From positions 248,001 to 312,000 of the forward strand of contig NZ_WUBS01000002.1 in NCBI RefSeq assembly GCF_010131535.1: 64,000 bases of DNA. Direction: 5' to 3'. This document shows, piece after piece, positions 2,258 to 18,240 of the stretch; the stretch's first letter is position 1; each line of letters starts with the position of its first letter. This DNA is from Acerihabitans arboris. Its GTDB lineage: Bacteria > Pseudomonadota > Gammaproteobacteria > Enterobacterales > Enterobacteriaceae. Made by a program: the position numbers and the translations under genes. Below the pieces are notes generated by a model, which was given only the letters and a program-made list of their open reading frames with translations, searched no databases and had not been told where the DNA came from.

Positions 2258-4258
2258 TCAGATATTGCGCGCCACTTCGTAGGCATCCCATACGGCATAC
2301 ATAATATTCTGCACATTTTTGGCATCGCCCAGCAGGTAGCTTTCCGGCACTTCGTCGCGCAGCTCATCGTATAAACGTTGCTCCGGCGCATAGCCGATGG
2401 CCAGGATAACCGAATCAGCCGCGATCGCCACCCCGGCGCCCTGCCCGGTCTTTAACATCAGCCGCCCGTTTTCGGCGGGTTCCAGCCGGGTGTCGGCCAG
2501 CACCCTGATCCCTTTGAACGCCACCAGATCGCGCAGCATATCCTCATTGGCATGACATAACGGGCCGCCCACCTGCAGGATGTCCTGCCGGACTTCCACC
2601 AGGGTAACGGTTTTCCCTTGATTCGCCAGCCACAGCGCCGTTTCGCAGCCCACCAGCCCCCCGCCGATAATAATTACGTTGTCGCCCGGATCTTGCTGTC
2701 CCAACAGCACCTCCTCGGCGGTATACACTCCGGTGGCCGACGCCAGTTCCAGCGTTCGGGGCCGCGAGCCGGTGGCGAACACCACCGCGTCGGCCGCCGC
2801 GTCGCGCAGCTCCCGGCGGGTGGCCCGGCTGTTAAGTTTGACCGTCACGCCAAGCCCGGCCAGTTCGCGCTCATACCAGGCGGCCAGCAGATGATCGTCC
2901 TGTTTAAAGTCAGGTATGCCGCCGGGGATCAGATTGCCGCCCAGCCGATCGCGCTGTTCCATTAACGTCACGCTATGGCCGCGCAGCGCCGCCACCCGGG
3001 CGGCCTCGCATCCGGCCGGTCCGCCGCCGATCACCAGCAACCGTTTCGGCCGCACGGCCGTGCCGGTGCCGTACTCCCGCTCGCGGCCGCAGGCGGGATT
3101 GACCGCGCAGGAAATCGCGGCGAACTGCGCCAGCCGCCCCATGCACCCCTCCTGGCATGACAGGCAAGGGCGGATACGTTCCGGGTGGCCCGCCCGGATT
3201 TTATTCGGGATATCCGCGTCGGCCAGCAGCGGGCGGCCGAGGGCAATCATGTCGGTCTGGCCGTCCCGGATCGCCTGCGAGGCCAGATCGGGATCGTCCA
3301 GGCGCCCGGCGGTGATCACCGGCACGCGCAAAATGCGCTTCAGAATCTGGTTATAAGGCAAATACAGTCCTTTAACCTGATACATCGGCGGATGCGCCCA
3401 GTACCAGGAGTCATAGGAGCCGACGTCGCCGTTAAAGGCGTCGTAACCTGCGGCCTCCAGCATTTTTGCCGCCTCGATCCCCTCCTCGATATCCCGCCCC
3501 CGTTCGGCGAAAGTTTCGTTCGGCAGCCCGCCCCGCCGCCAGTCCTTGATAAAACTTTTAATGCTGTAGCGCAGCGACACCGGAAAATCCTCGCCGCAGG
3601 CCGCTTTGATCGCCTGGACAATCTCGATGGCGAAACGCAGGCGATTCTCCAGGCTGCCGCCGTACTGGTCGGTACGGGAATTAAAAAAAGCGATGGCGAA
3701 CTGATCGAGCAAATAGCCCTCATGCACCGCGTGCACCTCGATACCGTCAAACCCGGCCCGTTTGGCAATCAGCGCCGACTCGGCAAATTTGCGCACATAG
3801 GTGTGGATCTCCCCGACGCTGAGCGCGCGGCAGGTCACATCCGGCAGCCACCGGTGGGGAATGGGCGACGGGGCGACGGCGGTATTGCCGACAATCGCAG
3901 GGATACTCACCCGGCCGAAACCGGCGGACAGCTGGAGGAAAATCTTTGCTCCCCAGGCATGGATGCGTTCGGTCATCATCTTGCCGGTCTTGACAAAATG
4001 AGTCGGGTTTAGCGTGGGGCAAGGCATTGACGGCAGCGCGCAGCGTTCAATCTCGTTTTCCACCATGGTGACGCCGGTAATAAGCAGGCCGGTGCCGCCC
4101 TTGGCGCGCTCCACATAATAATCAACGCCGCGCTGGTTAAAGGTGCCGTCCGCATCGCACAGGCCGCCGGGTCCCATCGGCGCCATCACAAAACGGTTTT
4201 TCAGCGTCAGTTTGCCTATGGTAAACGGCTCGAAAAGGATGTTATGGGATTCTTTCAT
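2258..4258 (-). CDS. NADH:flavin oxidoreductase / enoate reductase (FadH/BaiCD family)
   Basis: A 666-residue two-part flavoenzyme. The N-terminal half is an Old Yellow Enzyme TIM barrel (start LFEPFTIGKLTLKNRFVMAPM; GFDGIEVHAVHEGYLLDQF; NSRTDQYGG). A [4Fe-4S] cluster motif follows (CLSCQEGC then ISCAVNP). The C-terminal half has FAD (VIGGGPAGCEAA) and NAD(P)H (IIIGGGLVGCETA) dinucleotide folds. Length and order match 2,4-dienoyl-CoA reductase FadH (~672 residues) and clostridial enoate/bile-acid reductases; the true substrate is unknown. A GTG five codons upstream is possible, but GGGGAA is best spaced for the ATG at 4258. No acyl-CoA genes lie nearby, so it may be an accessory alkene reductase. 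Confidence 0.85.
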   Translation of the reverse strand: MKESHNILFEPFTIGKLTLKNRFVMAPMGPGGLCDADGTFNQRGVDYYVERAKGGTGLLITGVTMVENEIERCALPSMPCPTLNPTHFVKTGKMMTERIHAWGAKIFLQLSAGFGRVSIPAIVGNTAVAPSPIPHRWLPDVTCRALSVGEIHTYVRKFAESALIAKRAGFDGIEVHAVHEGYLLDQFAIAFFNSRTDQYGGSLENRLRFAIEIVQAIKAACGEDFPVSLRYSIKSFIKDWRRGGLPNETFAERGRDIEEGIEAAKMLEAAGYDAFNGDVGSYDSWYWAHPPMYQVKGLYLPYNQILKRILRVPVITAGRLDDPDLASQAIRDGQTDMIALGRPLLADADIPNKIRAGHPERIRPCLSCQEGCMGRLAQFAAISCAVNPACGREREYGTGTAVRPKRLLVIGGGPAGCEAARVAALRGHSVTLMEQRDRLGGNLIPGGIPDFKQDDHLLAAWYERELAGLGVTVKLNSRATRRELRDAAADAVVFATGSRPRTLELASATGVYTAEEVLLGQQDPGDNVIIIGGGLVGCETALWLANQGKTVTLVEVRQDILQVGGPLCHANEDMLRDLVAFKGIRVLADTRLEPAENGRLMLKTGQGAGVAIAADSVILAIGYAPEQRLYDELRDEVPESYLLGDAKNVQNIMYAVWDAYEVARNI

Positions 4259-12577: not shown

Positions 12578-14359
12578 TTAGCGGTCAACCCCGCCGGTCA
12601 GGTTAACCTTGCTGATAAACGAGCCGCCGAACAACCGGCGCAGGGCGCTGTCCTGCGCCAGCGTCACCGCCCCCTCCGCCGTGGCGCTTTCGCCATACAG
12701 CGAGGCGACCACCTCGGTATGGGCGGACAGGCGCTGGACGATTTTGCGCACCGTGGCGCACACCAGCCGATGGCCGCCCACCGGGCCGCCCAGGATCAGC
12801 ATCGCCGGATCGAGGGTAGCCACCAGCCCGGTGGCCAGGTAACCCACCTGGGTAGCATATTCCTGTACCCCTTTGACGGCGGCGGGCTCGCCGGCGTCGG
12901 CCCGCGTCAGCAATTCGGGCAACCGGCGCGCGTTGCTGGGCGGTGAAACCGGCCTGGTGCGGCTAAGGTAATCGGGATAACCGAGGTGTTGCTCGAGCAT
13001 CAGTTCCACCGGGTGCTCGGTGGCGCTCCATGGAAAAGGGATATCCGCCACTTCGCCGGCGCAGCCCCGTACGCCCCGGATCAGCTGTCCGCCGGCGATG
13101 ATGCCCGCGCCGATATGGGTGCCGACCTGCAAAAAAATCACGTCGCGCAAGCCCTTTGCCACCCCGTTGACCGCCTCGGCCGCCACCGCGCAGTTGACAT
13201 TGTTTTCCAGCGCCAGCCTGGCCGGCGAGGCCAGCCGCAGGCGCGACAGGATTTCATCGGGTGTCAACCCGGACTGTGACGGTCCCTCGCGACCGGACAG
13301 CACGATATCCTGGCGTATCGCCTGCGACAGGGCCAGCGTCACGGCGCACAGCGGCCCGTATTCGCGCAGTCCCTGCCGCAGTGCTTCCAGCAACGACGCC
13401 GCCCCGCCGATCAGCTGGTTAAACGGGGTATTGGTAATGCGCCGCTGCGCCAGTACTTTCCCCTCCAGGCTGCGGGCGATAAACAACGCCTGGTAGTTGC
13501 CGATATCGGCGCCCAGCACCCAGCCCGCGGTCTTGGCGATACCATAAACCTTGGCCGCCCGGCCTTTGGGCTGCGTCTGCATAAACAGCGGCCGCACCAG
13601 CCGCAGCTTTTGCAGCTCATCGATGCCCGCGGAGACGGTCGGTTTGGACAACCCGGCCCCCAGCGCCAGTTCCGGCCGCGTGGCCGGGCCCTGCGTCAGC
13701 AAGGTCATGCCCAGCAATTTGGCGATACCGCCCAATACCGGCATCGATGAACCGTCCTGCTCGTCGGGCTGCTGTTCCGCCTGATAAGCCAGGTGATGGC
13801 TAATAAAGGACAGCGCTTCCGGCAAGGCTTTTTCCCTGCCTGTCGCCGCCGCGGTCTTGCGTAGCCGGGCCGACAGCTGCCTTAACGTACCCAGCGACAT
13901 CAGCTGCCGCTGGCGCAGGAACCAGTCGGCAAACAGCGCCTCCGGCCGCCGTTCGGGCGGCAAGGCAAAATAATCCAGCGCCACCCGGGCGGGCGAACTC
14001 ATCCAGACGTCAGGGCCGATCCGGCTGTCGCCCGCCAGGCCTGCGACGCCCGGCCGGGGAATTATGGTGATGCCGGGCAGCGCCAGCTCGCGCCGGCGGG
14101 AATGGACGATAAACAGCGTCCGCCCGCTCACGGGATCGGCGAGCATGGCGGATTCTCCCACCACCAGGCAACCGGGAAAGGCCTGGCCGATAATATGCCA
14201 GATAAAACGACGGACAATCCGCTCGCCGTCTTCGTTGACCGCACCGCTGTACACACCGCGCGCCAGGCGTTTAAGCGTGCCCCGCCGGGTGGCGCGGCTG
14301 ATAACCGCGGCATCGTGTTCATGGGCAAAGACCAGATCCGGCCAGGGCGCTCGCGACAA
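12578..14359 (-). CDS. AbiEi-like antitoxin domain fused to ROK-family repressor
   Basis: A 593-residue fusion. Residues 1-~190 resemble the winged-helix and C-terminal parts of AbiEi-type (type IV) antitoxin domains: LKRLARGVYSG, VRRFIWHIIGQAFPGCLVVGESA, LFIVHSRRRELALPGITIIPR and SPARVALDYF. A short linker (~195-208) leads to a winged helix (~215-262, LSKPTVSAGIDELQKLRLV) and a ROK domain (~280-580, VLGADIGNYQ, LENNVNCAVAAEA, GTHIGAGIIAGG, LILGGPVGGH). Canonical ROK zinc cysteines (CxCG) are absent, arguing for a regulator rather than a kinase. The start is TTG at 14359 with GGAG nine bases upstream. Divergent from the SIS-kinase-transporter operon, which it probably controls. Confidence 0.75.
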   Translation of the reverse strand: MSRAPWPDLVFAHEHDAAVISRATRRGTLKRLARGVYSGAVNEDGERIVRRFIWHIIGQAFPGCLVVGESAMLADPVSGRTLFIVHSRRRELALPGITIIPRPGVAGLAGDSRIGPDVWMSSPARVALDYFALPPERRPEALFADWFLRQRQLMSLGTLRQLSARLRKTAAATGREKALPEALSFISHHLAYQAEQQPDEQDGSSMPVLGGIAKLLGMTLLTQGPATRPELALGAGLSKPTVSAGIDELQKLRLVRPLFMQTQPKGRAAKVYGIAKTAGWVLGADIGNYQALFIARSLEGKVLAQRRITNTPFNQLIGGAASLLEALRQGLREYGPLCAVTLALSQAIRQDIVLSGREGPSQSGLTPDEILSRLRLASPARLALENNVNCAVAAEAVNGVAKGLRDVIFLQVGTHIGAGIIAGGQLIRGVRGCAGEVADIPFPWSATEHPVELMLEQHLGYPDYLSRTRPVSPPSNARRLPELLTRADAGEPAAVKGVQEYATQVGYLATGLVATLDPAMLILGGPVGGHRLVCATVRKIVQRLSAHTEVVASLYGESATAEGAVTLAQDSALRRLFGGSFISKVNLTGGVDR

Positions 14360-14373
14360 TTTTTATCTCCAAA

Positions 14374-14466
14374 AACTTGACCGGAAAAGCAAAAATGCCG
14401 TTTAACGGTCAATAAAATGGCATATCGGTCAGTTTTTATAGGCAATTATTATTAAATGGTCAAGTT
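14374..14466. promoter_or_regulatory. Cluster of four GGTCA half-sites
   Basis: AACTTGACC (14374-14382) and GGTCAAGTT (14458-14466) form a perfect 9-bp inverted repeat 75 bases apart. Two further GGTCA copies lie between (14407-14411 and 14427-14431). They sit in the divergent region, beside the ribosome-binding site of the ROK-fusion gene. A regulator array is likely; which protein binds is inference. Confidence 0.4.
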
Positions 14467-14645
14467 ATAAGCTCAGATAATCCGCTATCGGCACCCATCG
14501 CCGGCCATCTACCGTCATCAAAAAGCAGCCATTAAGCGCTAACCAATTAATATTTAATCATTTCATACCATAGTTTTATACTATTGGCGGGCGACGGTTT
14601 TCACATCGTAAAATCATTTTACATTAAGCAATCAGAGCCGGAACC

Positions 14646-15692
14646 ATGCTTCAACCACAGGAAATTCTGATCCCCTTTGCCGCGGGCATCGACGCGCAGC
14701 CGGACGCCGTGGCGACCACCTGTACCGCTACGCTGCGCTGGCTGGACACCCTGGATATCGAGGCGCTGCGCCATGCCCGCCTGCTGTTTATCGGCATCGG
14801 CGCCTCCCACGCCCTGCTGGCGACCACCGTCGATACCTTGCGCGGCGCGGGCGTCTACGCGTTGCGCAGCGACGGCGACGATCTTCCTCCCGCCTGCCCG
14901 GTACTGGCCGACTGGTACATCTGCGTATCCCAAAGCGGCCGCAGCCCCGAGGTGGTACAGGCGGCCCGGCACCAGCCCGACCCGCGCCGGCGCTTGTCCA
15001 TCGTCAACCAGCCGGACTCGCCGCTGGAGCGGGAGTGCGGCGTCGCCTTGTGCCTGGGCGGCCTGGTTGACTCGGGCATGTCGTCGGTGGCGCTGATGGC
15101 CACCGCGCTGGCGCTCGGCATGCTTGGCGATTACATCACCGGCGACCACCGACTGGCCGACTGGCGGCAACTGCCGCAACGGCTGGTCGCCTTGAGAGCC
15201 GCCGCCCAGCCGGTGGTGGCACGCTTCGCCGAGCAATCAGCCGGTATCGGGTGCGTGGATTTCGCCGCCCGCGCCAGCAGCCTGACCGCCGCCGAGCAAG
15301 GGGCCCTGTTCCTGCGCGAGGGGCCGAAGGTTCCCGCCATGGCCTCGGGCACGCGTAATTACCTGCACGGCATGACCGACTCGGTGGGCAATACCGCGCA
15401 TGTCATTATCGGCGGCGCGCGCGAAGCGCTGCTGGCGCGGCAGCTGACCGAGTTCAACGTGCCCATCCTGCTGGTGACCGATGAGAAGGATGTGGTTATC
15501 CCGGGTGTGGAAATCCTGTATATCCCGCCCCTGGCGGCCGGTCCGCGCGTCCTGCTGGAGATCCTGGTCATGGAACTGCTGGCCTTGTCGCTTGCCGGGG
15601 TGTGGGGCGGCGATATCGACGCCGGGGTGGTGAAACGCCTTGATACCAAGCTTGACCAACAGGGCGCGCCGGCGGGGAACGGACCATTATGA
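14646..15692 (+). CDS. SIS-domain sugar-phosphate isomerase/deglycase-like protein
   Basis: A 348-residue protein with two SIS (sugar isomerase) halves. The first binding loop reads FIGIGASHALLATTVDTLRGAG (~45-66) and the second ISQSGRSPEVV-like CVSQSGRSPEVVQAAR (~95-110). The second half has EQGALFLREGPKVPAMASGTRNYLHG, where Glu and His are candidate catalytic residues as in GlmS/AgaS/FrlB relatives. It is closest in plan to amino-sugar-6-phosphate deaminases and Amadori deglycases. It begins an operon with a kinase (4-base overlap) and a transporter, so a phosphorylated amino sugar or fructosamine-type compound is a plausible substrate (inference). Confidence 0.8.
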   Translation: MLQPQEILIPFAAGIDAQPDAVATTCTATLRWLDTLDIEALRHARLLFIGIGASHALLATTVDTLRGAGVYALRSDGDDLPPACPVLADWYICVSQSGRSPEVVQAARHQPDPRRRLSIVNQPDSPLERECGVALCLGGLVDSGMSSVALMATALALGMLGDYITGDHRLADWRQLPQRLVALRAAAQPVVARFAEQSAGIGCVDFAARASSLTAAEQGALFLREGPKVPAMASGTRNYLHGMTDSVGNTAHVIIGGAREALLARQLTEFNVPILLVTDEKDVVIPGVEILYIPPLAAGPRVLLEILVMELLALSLAGVWGGDIDAGVVKRLDTKLDQQGAPAGNGPL

Positions 15693-16588
15693 CCGACATC
15701 CTGGCCGGTATCGACGTCGGCGGCACCAAAACCCGCCTGATGCTACAAGACGCGTCGGGCGCGATCCTGCTGGATCACACCAGCCCTACCCGGCGCTGGC
15801 GCGGTGAATCCTTTGCCGCCAAGGCGGCTCTGCTGGCGCGCTCGCTGGAGCAGGCCCTGACGTGCCAGGGCGGCAACCGCCGGCTGCGCGCCCTAGCCGT
15901 CGGCGCACATGGCTGCGATCTGGCCGAAGAGTGCCTGGCGCTGGCAAGCCTGCTGCAACCCTGTTTTCCGGCCGCGCGCTGCCGGGTGGTCAGCGATGTC
16001 GCCCTGGTGGCGCCGGCCGCCGGCCAACCCCATGCCATCGGCCTTATCGCCGGCACCGGTTCGGTCGCCATCGCCCTTGACGCGCGTGGCGAATATGTGT
16101 CGGCGGGCGGCTGGGGCTGGATGCTGGGCGATGAAGGCGGCGCCAGCGGCCTGGTGCGGGAAGCGATCCGGGCGCTGCTGGAAGATTACGATCGGGGCAA
16201 CCTGGATGACCCGTTAACCCACGCGCTGCTCGCCGCATTTGGCGCCGGGCACGTCATTGATTTGCCGTCGCAGCTGCTGAAGGGCGACGTCGCCCAGTGG
16301 AGCCGCCATGCGGCCCTTGTTTTCGCCTGCGAACGCGAGGGGTCGTTATTGGCCGCCGCGGTGATAAACCGGGCGGTGGAGGCATTGGCCGGGTTGGTGG
16401 ATCGCCTGCACCGCCGCGGCGTCGCCAGCCGCCGGGTGATTGCCGCCGGCGGGGTGATTTCACACCAGCCGCGGATGTTTGCCGCGCTGGCCGCGGCGTT
16501 AAGCGCCCGCCAGCCGCCGGCCTCCCTGGAACTGCTCGGGGTCGCGCCGGTAAACGGCGCCCTGTCGCTGGCCCGTTCGCTGCTGTAG
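15689..16588 (+). CDS. BadF/BcrA-type kinase (N-acetylglucosamine kinase-like)
   Basis: A 299-residue ASKHA-fold ATPase. The phosphate-1 loop GIDVGGTKTRLML is at residues ~6-18, the middle GTGSVAIALDARG binds phosphate, and AGGWGWMLGDEGGASGLVREA is typical of the BadF/BadG/GlcNAc kinase family. The adenosine motif AAGGVISHQP is near residue 250. It probably phosphorylates the sugar moiety imported by the downstream carrier before the SIS protein acts on it; substrate is inferred from context. Its start ATGA overlaps the SIS gene stop. Confidence 0.82.
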   Translation: MTDILAGIDVGGTKTRLMLQDASGAILLDHTSPTRRWRGESFAAKAALLARSLEQALTCQGGNRRLRALAVGAHGCDLAEECLALASLLQPCFPAARCRVVSDVALVAPAAGQPHAIGLIAGTGSVAIALDARGEYVSAGGWGWMLGDEGGASGLVREAIRALLEDYDRGNLDDPLTHALLAAFGAGHVIDLPSQLLKGDVAQWSRHAALVFACEREGSLLAAAVINRAVEALAGLVDRLHRRGVASRRVIAAGGVISHQPRMFAALAAALSARQPPASLELLGVAPVNGALSLARSLL

Positions 16589-16698
16589 CCGGACGCGGAC
16601 GCGACCGCGCGGTTGCAGTCGCTTTTATACGGCCTTGTCGCCAAGGCACCCTGTTACGTAGCGCGGTTACGCAGCGCGACTTTTTGCGAAGGTATGAT

Positions 16699-18240
16699 AT
16701 GTCCACATCTGAAAAACACTTGCCGGGCCAGGCAACCACCGCGCAAAGCGCGGCGGTTGCCGCGCCCAAAACCGTACGATTCCCCAGCACCTACGCCGTG
16801 CTGCTGGCCATCACCCTGGTGGTCTGGGCGCTGACGTTTGTCATTCCCAGCGGCAAATATCAACTGGCCGACGGCAAACCCGTCGCCGGTTCCTATCAGC
16901 ATATCGACAACCTGCGCTCCTTTGGCGCCAAACTGCTGGATTTGTTCCTGGCGCCGGTCAACGGCCTGTACGGCATGGTCAATGCCGAGAGCGGCCACGT
17001 CGGCCCGTATGAAAGCGGCGGCATGTTCGGCGCTATCGGGGTGTTCTTTTTTGTCCTGGCCATCGGCGCCTTCGTCAATACCACCCTGCGCACCGGCGCG
17101 ATAGACGCCGGCATCGGCCGGGTGGCCGCCCGCTTTAAACAGCGCGGCGCGCTGCTGATAAGCATAGTGATGTTGCTGATTGCCATCGGCGGGTCGACCT
17201 TCGGCATGGGCGAGGAGACGCTCGGGTTCTATGCCATCCTGATCCCGCTGCTGCTGAGCCTGGGCTATGACCGGCTCACCGCCGTGGGCGTAATCCTGGT
17301 GGGATCGGTGGTCGGCAATATGAATTCGACGGTGAATCCCTTTATGACCGGCGCCGCCTCGGCCGGGGCCAATATCCCGCTCGGCCAGGGGATTGGCCTG
17401 CGGGCGGTGATGTTTATCGTGCTCACCGCCGTCGCCGTCGGGTATGTGCTGCGTTACGCCCGCCGGGTAAAACGCGATCCGTCGCGCTCTCCGGTCGGCA
17501 TCAGCGCCGGGGACGCGCTGCTGGCGGCGGCCTGCGATCAAAACCTCGCGCCGATGACCGGCGCGCAAAAAGCGGTCATGGCCTGCTTTGCCGGCACCTT
17601 CGTATTTATGATTTTCGCCCTGGTGCCCTGGGCGCAGGTGATAGTGGCGCCGGATGCCGCCTCCTATCCCTGGCAGCTCGACTGGTACTTTCCGGAACTG
17701 ACCGCCCTGTTTTTCCTGATGGCGCTGGCGATCGGCCTGGTGGGGGGGCTGTACGGCGAGACGTTGGTGGCCGCGATGATCGGCGGCATCGCCGATTTCA
17801 TGGGCGCCGCGCTGGTGATCCTCCTGGCGCGCGGCATCACGGTTATCATGCACAACGCGTTTATCACCGATACGGTGCTGCACTCGGTGGAAAGCCTGAT
17901 CGGCGGCACCGCGTCGTCGGTCTTCTCGGTGGTGATGATGCTGGTGATCATGCCGCTCTCGTTCCTGGTGCCGAGCTCTTCGGGTCTGGCCACGCTTGCC
18001 ATGCCGGTGCTGGCGCCGATGGCGGATTTCGCCGGGGTCGGCCGCGAGGTGGTGGTGACGGCGTTCCAATGCGCGGTGGGCATTGTCGCCCTGGTCACCC
18101 CGACGTCGGCCATCGTGATGAGCGGCCTGGCCCTGGCCAAGGTCAGCTACAGCAAATACCTGCTATGGGTGCTGCCGCTGCTGGCCGTGCTGCTGGTGAT
18201 TGCCGCGCTGTTCCTCGCCCTTGCCGCCTCGTTGCCTTAA
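16699..18240 (+). CDS. YfcC-family (DcuC-like) transporter
   Basis: A 513-residue integral membrane carrier with about 12 helices. Family features are the first helix AVLLAITLVVWALTFVIPSGKY, the FGMGEETLGFYAILIPLLLSLGYD signature, and near the C-terminus VPSSSGLATLAMPVLAPMADFAGV followed by PTSAIVMSGLALAKVSY. YfcC relatives include C4-dicarboxylate and arginine/ornithine-type carriers, and Salmonella FraA, which imports fructose-asparagine. The frame is open far upstream, but GAAGG precedes the ATG at 16699, 110 bases after the kinase gene. Together with the SIS and kinase genes it forms an uptake-phosphorylate-cleave set; the actual substrate is unknown. Confidence 0.82.
   Translation: MSTSEKHLPGQATTAQSAAVAAPKTVRFPSTYAVLLAITLVVWALTFVIPSGKYQLADGKPVAGSYQHIDNLRSFGAKLLDLFLAPVNGLYGMVNAESGHVGPYESGGMFGAIGVFFFVLAIGAFVNTTLRTGAIDAGIGRVAARFKQRGALLISIVMLLIAIGGSTFGMGEETLGFYAILIPLLLSLGYDRLTAVGVILVGSVVGNMNSTVNPFMTGAASAGANIPLGQGIGLRAVMFIVLTAVAVGYVLRYARRVKRDPSRSPVGISAGDALLAAACDQNLAPMTGAQKAVMACFAGTFVFMIFALVPWAQVIVAPDAASYPWQLDWYFPELTALFFLMALAIGLVGGLYGETLVAAMIGGIADFMGAALVILLARGITVIMHNAFITDTVLHSVESLIGGTASSVFSVVMMLVIMPLSFLVPSSSGLATLAMPVLAPMADFAGVGREVVVTAFQCAVGIVALVTPTSAIVMSGLALAKVSYSKYLLWVLPLLAVLLVIAALFLALAASLP

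Follow-up and report, generated by a model that had tools for sequence, protein, structure and literature searches.

The window analysed here, a stretch of 64,000 nucleotides from contig NZ_WUBS01000002.1 of Acerihabitans arboris, contains on its reverse strand a frame (14359-12578) that runs uninterrupted for 593 codons and joins an AbiEi-type domain to a winged helix of the MarR type and to a ROK domain in a single chain (Table 1). A GGAG Shine-Dalgarno sequence lies 7 nt 5' of the TTG start, and 286 bp of divergent intergenic DNA separate the regulator gene from an operon encoding a SIS-domain protein, a BadF/BadG-type kinase and a DcuC/YfcC-type transporter; a NAD synthase and a LysR gene are further neighbours. 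The transporter frame as listed starts inside the kinase gene, with its DcuC match beginning at residue 162, and its true start is probably near 16690, past the kinase gene.

Table 1. Coordinates of the regulator, its domains, the operator-like motifs and the divergent operon (positions within the window)
Feature	Position	Strand	Basis or remark
AbiEi-ROK fusion regulator, 593 aa, TTG start	12578..14359	-	ORF, Pfam, orthologues
ROK domain, residues 273-590	12590..13543	-	Pfam; ENNVNC for END; without CxCG
MarR-type winged helix, residues 209-272	13544..13735	-	Pfam MarR_2, AF2
AbiEi-type N-terminal domain, residues 1-195	13775..14359	-	Pfam, PADLOC, hhalign, AF2, Foldseek
Inverted TTGACC copy (CTTGACC 14376-14382)	14377..14382	+	Just upstream of the regulator's ribosome-binding site
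TTGACC copy 3	14407..14412	-	20 bp from copy 2
TGACC copy 2	14427..14431	-	31 bp from copy 1
TTGACC copy 1	14458..14463	-	-35-like hexamer of regulator promoter
Putative ROK-wHTH operator: perfect palindrome of 15 bp, GTAAAATCATTTTAC, with YTWACGA half-site	14608..14622	.	23 bp 5' of SIS gene
SIS-domain protein (GlmS/NagB-II type), first gene of divergent operon	14646..15692	+	
BadF/BadG-type kinase, GlcNAc/MurNAc-kinase-like	15689..16588	+	
DcuC/YfcC-type transporter, ORF as listed	16297..18240	+	

Kinship of the N-terminal domain with AbiEi antitoxins, which the earlier note had proposed for residues 1 to about 190, was borne out over residues 1-195. Comparison of a profile of six fused N-terminal domains with one of 19 AbiEi-family proteins, drawn from genomes of the order to which a Micrococcales metagenome-assembled genome (MAG) with a fused copy belongs, aligned residues 16-180 (hhalign P 91.7%, E 7.7e-7; reversed-profile controls, P 0.1 and 0.2%), and the N-terminal domains of all six homologues tested with PADLOC matched AbiEi models only (best 1.9e-5). 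Sequence homology to AbiEi extends over the winged helix-turn-helix (wHTH) and the C-terminal domain. Pfam AbiEi_4 matches residues 18-37 at 9.8e-4 and 19.6 bits, below its curated cut-off of 25 bits; a search of PDB sequences with the N-terminal profile gave chance matches only. AlphaFold2, run on the full-length alignment, predicts residues 10-195 at a pLDDT of about 90, with a recognition helix and wing at about residues 16-38 and a putative nucleotidyltransferase (NTase)-like core at 45-195; the ROK half of this model is poor, and no inter-domain arrangement is therefore claimed. Both the model and the hhalign alignment show a truncated wHTH that lacks helix 1; of a three-helix wHTH with a three-stranded sheet, the model contains just the recognition helix and the wing. 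The best Foldseek match of the domain model is a weak one to 5KQJ, ANT(2'')-Ia (E 0.023, prob 0.92, TM 0.38-0.40), with the MenT1 toxin among the next matches and AbiEi entries not returned. A published DALI search with the AbiEi crystal structure lists Rv2827c first and then adenylyltransferases including 5KQJ (PMC7319586), and the weak Foldseek match therefore agrees with the structural neighbours of the AbiEi family itself.

The domain has in common with the AbiEi/Rv2827c type IV antitoxins (AbiEi_4; 1ZEL) a recognition helix and wing ending in RGVY, an S-P-A-R motif ahead of a helix, 5KQJ as structural neighbour and, putatively, an NTase-like C-terminal core, but it lacks wHTH helix 1, has no toxin partner and does not stand alone. 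No toxin gene was seen next to the regulator in the fused loci examined. Elsewhere in the Acerihabitans arboris genome, a separate AbiEi-AbiEii pair is found on contig C56 at 2758-3892 (L055, L105); its AbiEii match contains one TGA and is the only AbiEii found in that genome.

Downstream of this domain the chain follows the order of ROK repressors such as Mlc, NagC, XylR and Lmo0178 (PDB 1z6r, 5f7q), a MarR-type winged helix and then ROK, and the continuity with a complete wHTH-ROK repressor read by the earlier note from the sequence holds throughout the open frame. Pfam identifies ROK (PF00480) at 1e-23 and MarR_2 at 6e-4, profile and fold searches match ROK-family repressors, and the gene, like theirs, stands beside a catabolic operon; with its winged helix N-terminal to ROK, the protein belongs among the ROK transcriptional regulators. 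It departs from them in its additional 195-residue N-terminal domain, in the absence of the zinc-binding CxCG, in the replacement of the kinase Asp of END by Asn (ENNVNC) and in a promoter region that holds a second operator-like motif, unrelated to the first. The full CxCGxxGCxE motif is absent from the fused regulator, its unfused close relatives and the L004 ROK comparison; because it does not separate them, its absence is not taken to exclude membership of the family. ENNVNC occurs in all eight fused proteins and in eight of nine unfused relatives, the ninth (L051) having no match, and in place of END it makes the ROK domain most likely a sensor.

A survey of the architecture and its neighbours recovered the fusion in eight lineages, seven enterobacterial (the window, bin_314 from the same genus, Edaphovirga, Franconibacter, Rahnella, Biostraticola and Klebsiella plasmids) and one actinobacterial (the Micrococcales MAG, L031), one of the eight being known from a MAG contig. 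The SIS gene is divergent from the regulator in 8/8 loci; a BadF-type kinase and, where the contig allows, a DcuC/YfcC transporter are likewise divergent in the fused loci. Seven Klebsiella plasmids carry identical or near-identical copies, currently annotated simply as 'ROK family protein'; at megablast sensitivity the Klebsiella version is in no E. coli genome. The fusion is rare, being present in 4/295 sampled genomes of the family and 1/395 of the order, with Acerihabitans arboris counted in both. Searches of PHROGs and viral contigs gave no relatives, and none of the ten papers listed by a literature search contained both AbiEi and the ROK family, a weak indication that the combination is new.

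The fusion is no artefact, and it has a single origin: in a tree of the ROK part, the eight fused sequences form one clade (100/100) to the exclusion of nine unfused relatives from rhizobia, Rhodobacter and Streptomyces. No segment of the protein is better conserved than residues 1-40, with 85, 82, 70 and 64% identity between the window and L026, L027, L028 and L031, respectively, against 74, 73, 52 and 45% for ROK and 62, 69, 40 and 45% for the second wHTH; nucleotide changes in this segment fall mainly at codon position 3 (0.15/0.07/0.42 and 0.17/0.05/0.62 for positions 1/2/3 in the two nearest orthologues). A read-through or mis-called start, with the true protein beginning near residue 205, is very improbable: unfused relatives start at about the equivalent position and nothing else was found in its support, whereas codon-level conservation from M1 is strong and the frame intact from the equivalent start in eight loci, start position and Shine-Dalgarno sequence are conserved, residues 1-195 have a high-confidence predicted fold, and the conservation and third-position changes of residues 1-40 exclude, on comparative grounds, that translation begins only near residue 205. 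In the Micrococcales protein the AbiEi part is shortened in its C-terminal half, with recognition helix and wing retained; a frameshift was sought in the shortened domain and not found. In Edaphovirga the regulator frame shifts towards the end of the ROK domain (L027 9500-9520), beyond which homology goes on in another frame; the operator motifs of that locus are intact.

Two types of motif occupy the divergent intergenic DNA, whose alignment shows islands of identity amid diverged sequence. The first is an array of three TGACC direct repeats that lies over and just downstream of the regulator promoter in 7/7 enterobacterial loci, at invariant spacings of 31-32 and then 20 bp, or about three and two helical turns. 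Copy 1 overlaps a -35-like TTGACC, a -10-like hexamer follows after 17-18 bp (in the window TATAAA at 14440-14435, 17 bp from copy 1), copy 2 lies past the -10 and copy 3 20 bp further; the first copy of bin_314 reads TGACT, and the inverted fourth copy is kept in the window's clade only. A generic promoter scan returned nothing, TATAAA failing its last-T rule. Dinucleotide shuffling reproduced the triple in 0/20,000 trials at each of the seven loci, for motifs that had been spotted by inspection before counting. The triple occurs once in the whole Acerihabitans arboris genome, where a pattern search found no wider TTGACC-triple regulon. At the actinobacterial locus, 185 bp contain three copies of CTTGACC/GGTCAAG, with 0.05 TTGACC expected.

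The second motif is the palindrome beside the SIS gene, which reads GTAAAnTnAnTTTACGAT at 14608-14622 in the window's clade and TCGTTAGGCAAGTGCCCTTACGA in the corresponding place at the Micrococcales locus, and which is kept in four fused loci, the latter included. It was not recognised in Franconibacter, Rahnella, Biostraticola and Klebsiella, where TTGACC persists and divergence affects the second winged helix (in the two compared, 38-40% identical to that of the window).

The closest ROK kin of the fused regulators are unfused regulators of rhizobial and actinobacterial SIS/BadF cassettes (about 35% identity for the rhizobial ones), sampled here as plasmid-borne, mostly alphaproteobacterial genes and from large actinobacterial genomes. 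Like the fused proteins they have ENNVNC and, in many cases, a YTWACGA-type palindrome (GTAAR/GTTAG..YTWAC; GTAAGGCAGCCTAACGAA-like in rhizobia, TCGTTAGGAAGTTAACTAACGA upstream of unfused genes in large actinobacterial genomes), and the rhizobial loci have SIS and, in most, BadF neighbours, together with ABC transporters; unlike the fused proteins they have neither the AbiEi domain nor the TTGACC triple. No TTGACC array was present upstream of the regulator in the rhizobial relatives, and ten actinobacterial unfused genes, whose products are 40-44% identical to the fused Micrococcales protein, have none or one TTGACC. Rhodobacter L051 is a partial exception, since two TTGACC precede its regulator gene (p 0.016); matches at Agrobacterium L047 were discarded as lying within coding sequence. 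A GTTAG..CTAACGA-type palindrome is conserved upstream of the same ten actinobacterial genes (L095-L104) and is a candidate operator of that unfused subfamily.

The YTWACGA half-site fits the ROK winged helix that fused and unfused proteins share, the TTGACC array the AbiEi-type module. These two operator types, which the earlier note did not mention, offer the strongest evidence that both modules are used, and the reading favoured here, with reasonable confidence, is that of a dual-operator repressor, a single chain carrying two modules for DNA binding, which would control the divergent amino-sugar or fructosamine cassette with its predicted SIS deaminase/isomerase, BadF kinase and DcuC transporter. 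The MarR-type winged helix would probably bind the palindrome beside the SIS gene, an assignment suggested by the occurrence of this palindrome with unfused relatives, and the AbiEi-type module would probably bind the helically phased repeats over the regulator's own promoter; such sites would be phased direct repeats, in contrast to the inverted repeats reported for AbiEi (PMC7319586). Through its oligomeric ROK domain the protein would grip the intergenic DNA at either end, at a distance of about 150 bp and with looping between, so that both promoters would be repressed cooperatively, and both would be released on binding of a pathway ligand that the ROK domain most likely senses without phosphorylating it.

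As regards the cassette, the sugar operon of the earlier note stands as a divergent catabolic operon, but its gene families point away from a plain sugar and to an amino-sugar or fructosamine compound as substrate. The fra locus of Salmonella, which has a Dcu-like transporter (FraA), a kinase and a phosphosugar isomerase, is an analogue (PMC4072780). An FrlB/FraB-like deglycase was considered for the SIS protein with the Dcu-like FraA in mind and rejected, as profile matches favour GlmS/NagB-II. The AbiEi module itself was upheld as to its relationship over residues 1-195, but with a truncated wHTH and no adjacent AbiEii toxin. Co-option of a toxin-antitoxin regulator, as the earlier note suggested, is plausible and unproven, because AbiEi-type domains commonly occur without a toxin.

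The main alternative to a dual-operator repressor, which we consider unlikely, assigns TTGACC as well as the palindrome to the ROK winged helix and leaves the AbiEi-type domain as an accessory for oligomerisation or DNA bending. The truncation of the AbiEi wHTH speaks for it, since without helix 1 DNA binding could be weakened, as do the two TTGACC of unfused L051 and the reported role of the AbiEi C-terminal domain in cooperative binding and DNA bending (PMC7319586); the palindrome left unrecognised in four fused lineages likewise weighs against two separate operators. Against a single reader, however, the TTGACC array is missing from unfused relatives whose ROK recognition helices (SKPT[VM]S) are similar, and TTGACC is invariant, with residues 1-40 conserved, despite variation in the second wHTH (38-45% between clades).

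Less probable still is that TTGACC represents the sites of another regulator or an unusual promoter, the N-terminal domain mediating contacts with other proteins, such as a nucleotidyltransferase-type partner of the kind that antitoxins have. AbiEi C-terminal domains do neutralise AbiEii toxins (PMC7319586), an AbiEii-family protein is encoded elsewhere in the genome, and copy 1 doubles as a -35 box; copies 2-4, however, are not explained in this way, no toxin gene adjoins the regulator in the fused loci examined, the motif tracks the fusion across two phyla in intergenic DNA that has otherwise diverged, and it is the C-terminal half of the domain that is shortened in the Micrococcales protein, where recognition helix and wing are kept.

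Taken one step further, the dual-operator repressor would, on balance, define a distinct class in which phased TTGACC direct repeats at the regulator's own promoter are read by an antitoxin-derived module and the palindrome at the target operon by the ROK winged helix. Such a class would have arisen once, after which regulator, operators and cassette would have spread together, on plasmids and from phylum to phylum. If this is true, a metabolic regulator uses an abortive-infection antitoxin-type domain as its specificity module, and the matching operator tracks the domain and not the species. TTGACC would then be a candidate recognition sequence for the AbiEi-type domain, and as both operator types are short and separable, the assignment of module to site is directly testable. 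The fusion protein is also a candidate regulator for the uncharacterised SIS/BadF/DcuC cassette found on Klebsiella plasmids. On one of these, a conjugative, IncF-type plasmid (L042 1-5194), the cassette adjoins a cluster of a second SIS gene, a PfkB kinase, an amino-acid ABC transporter and a LacI gene that resembles fructosamine utilisation.
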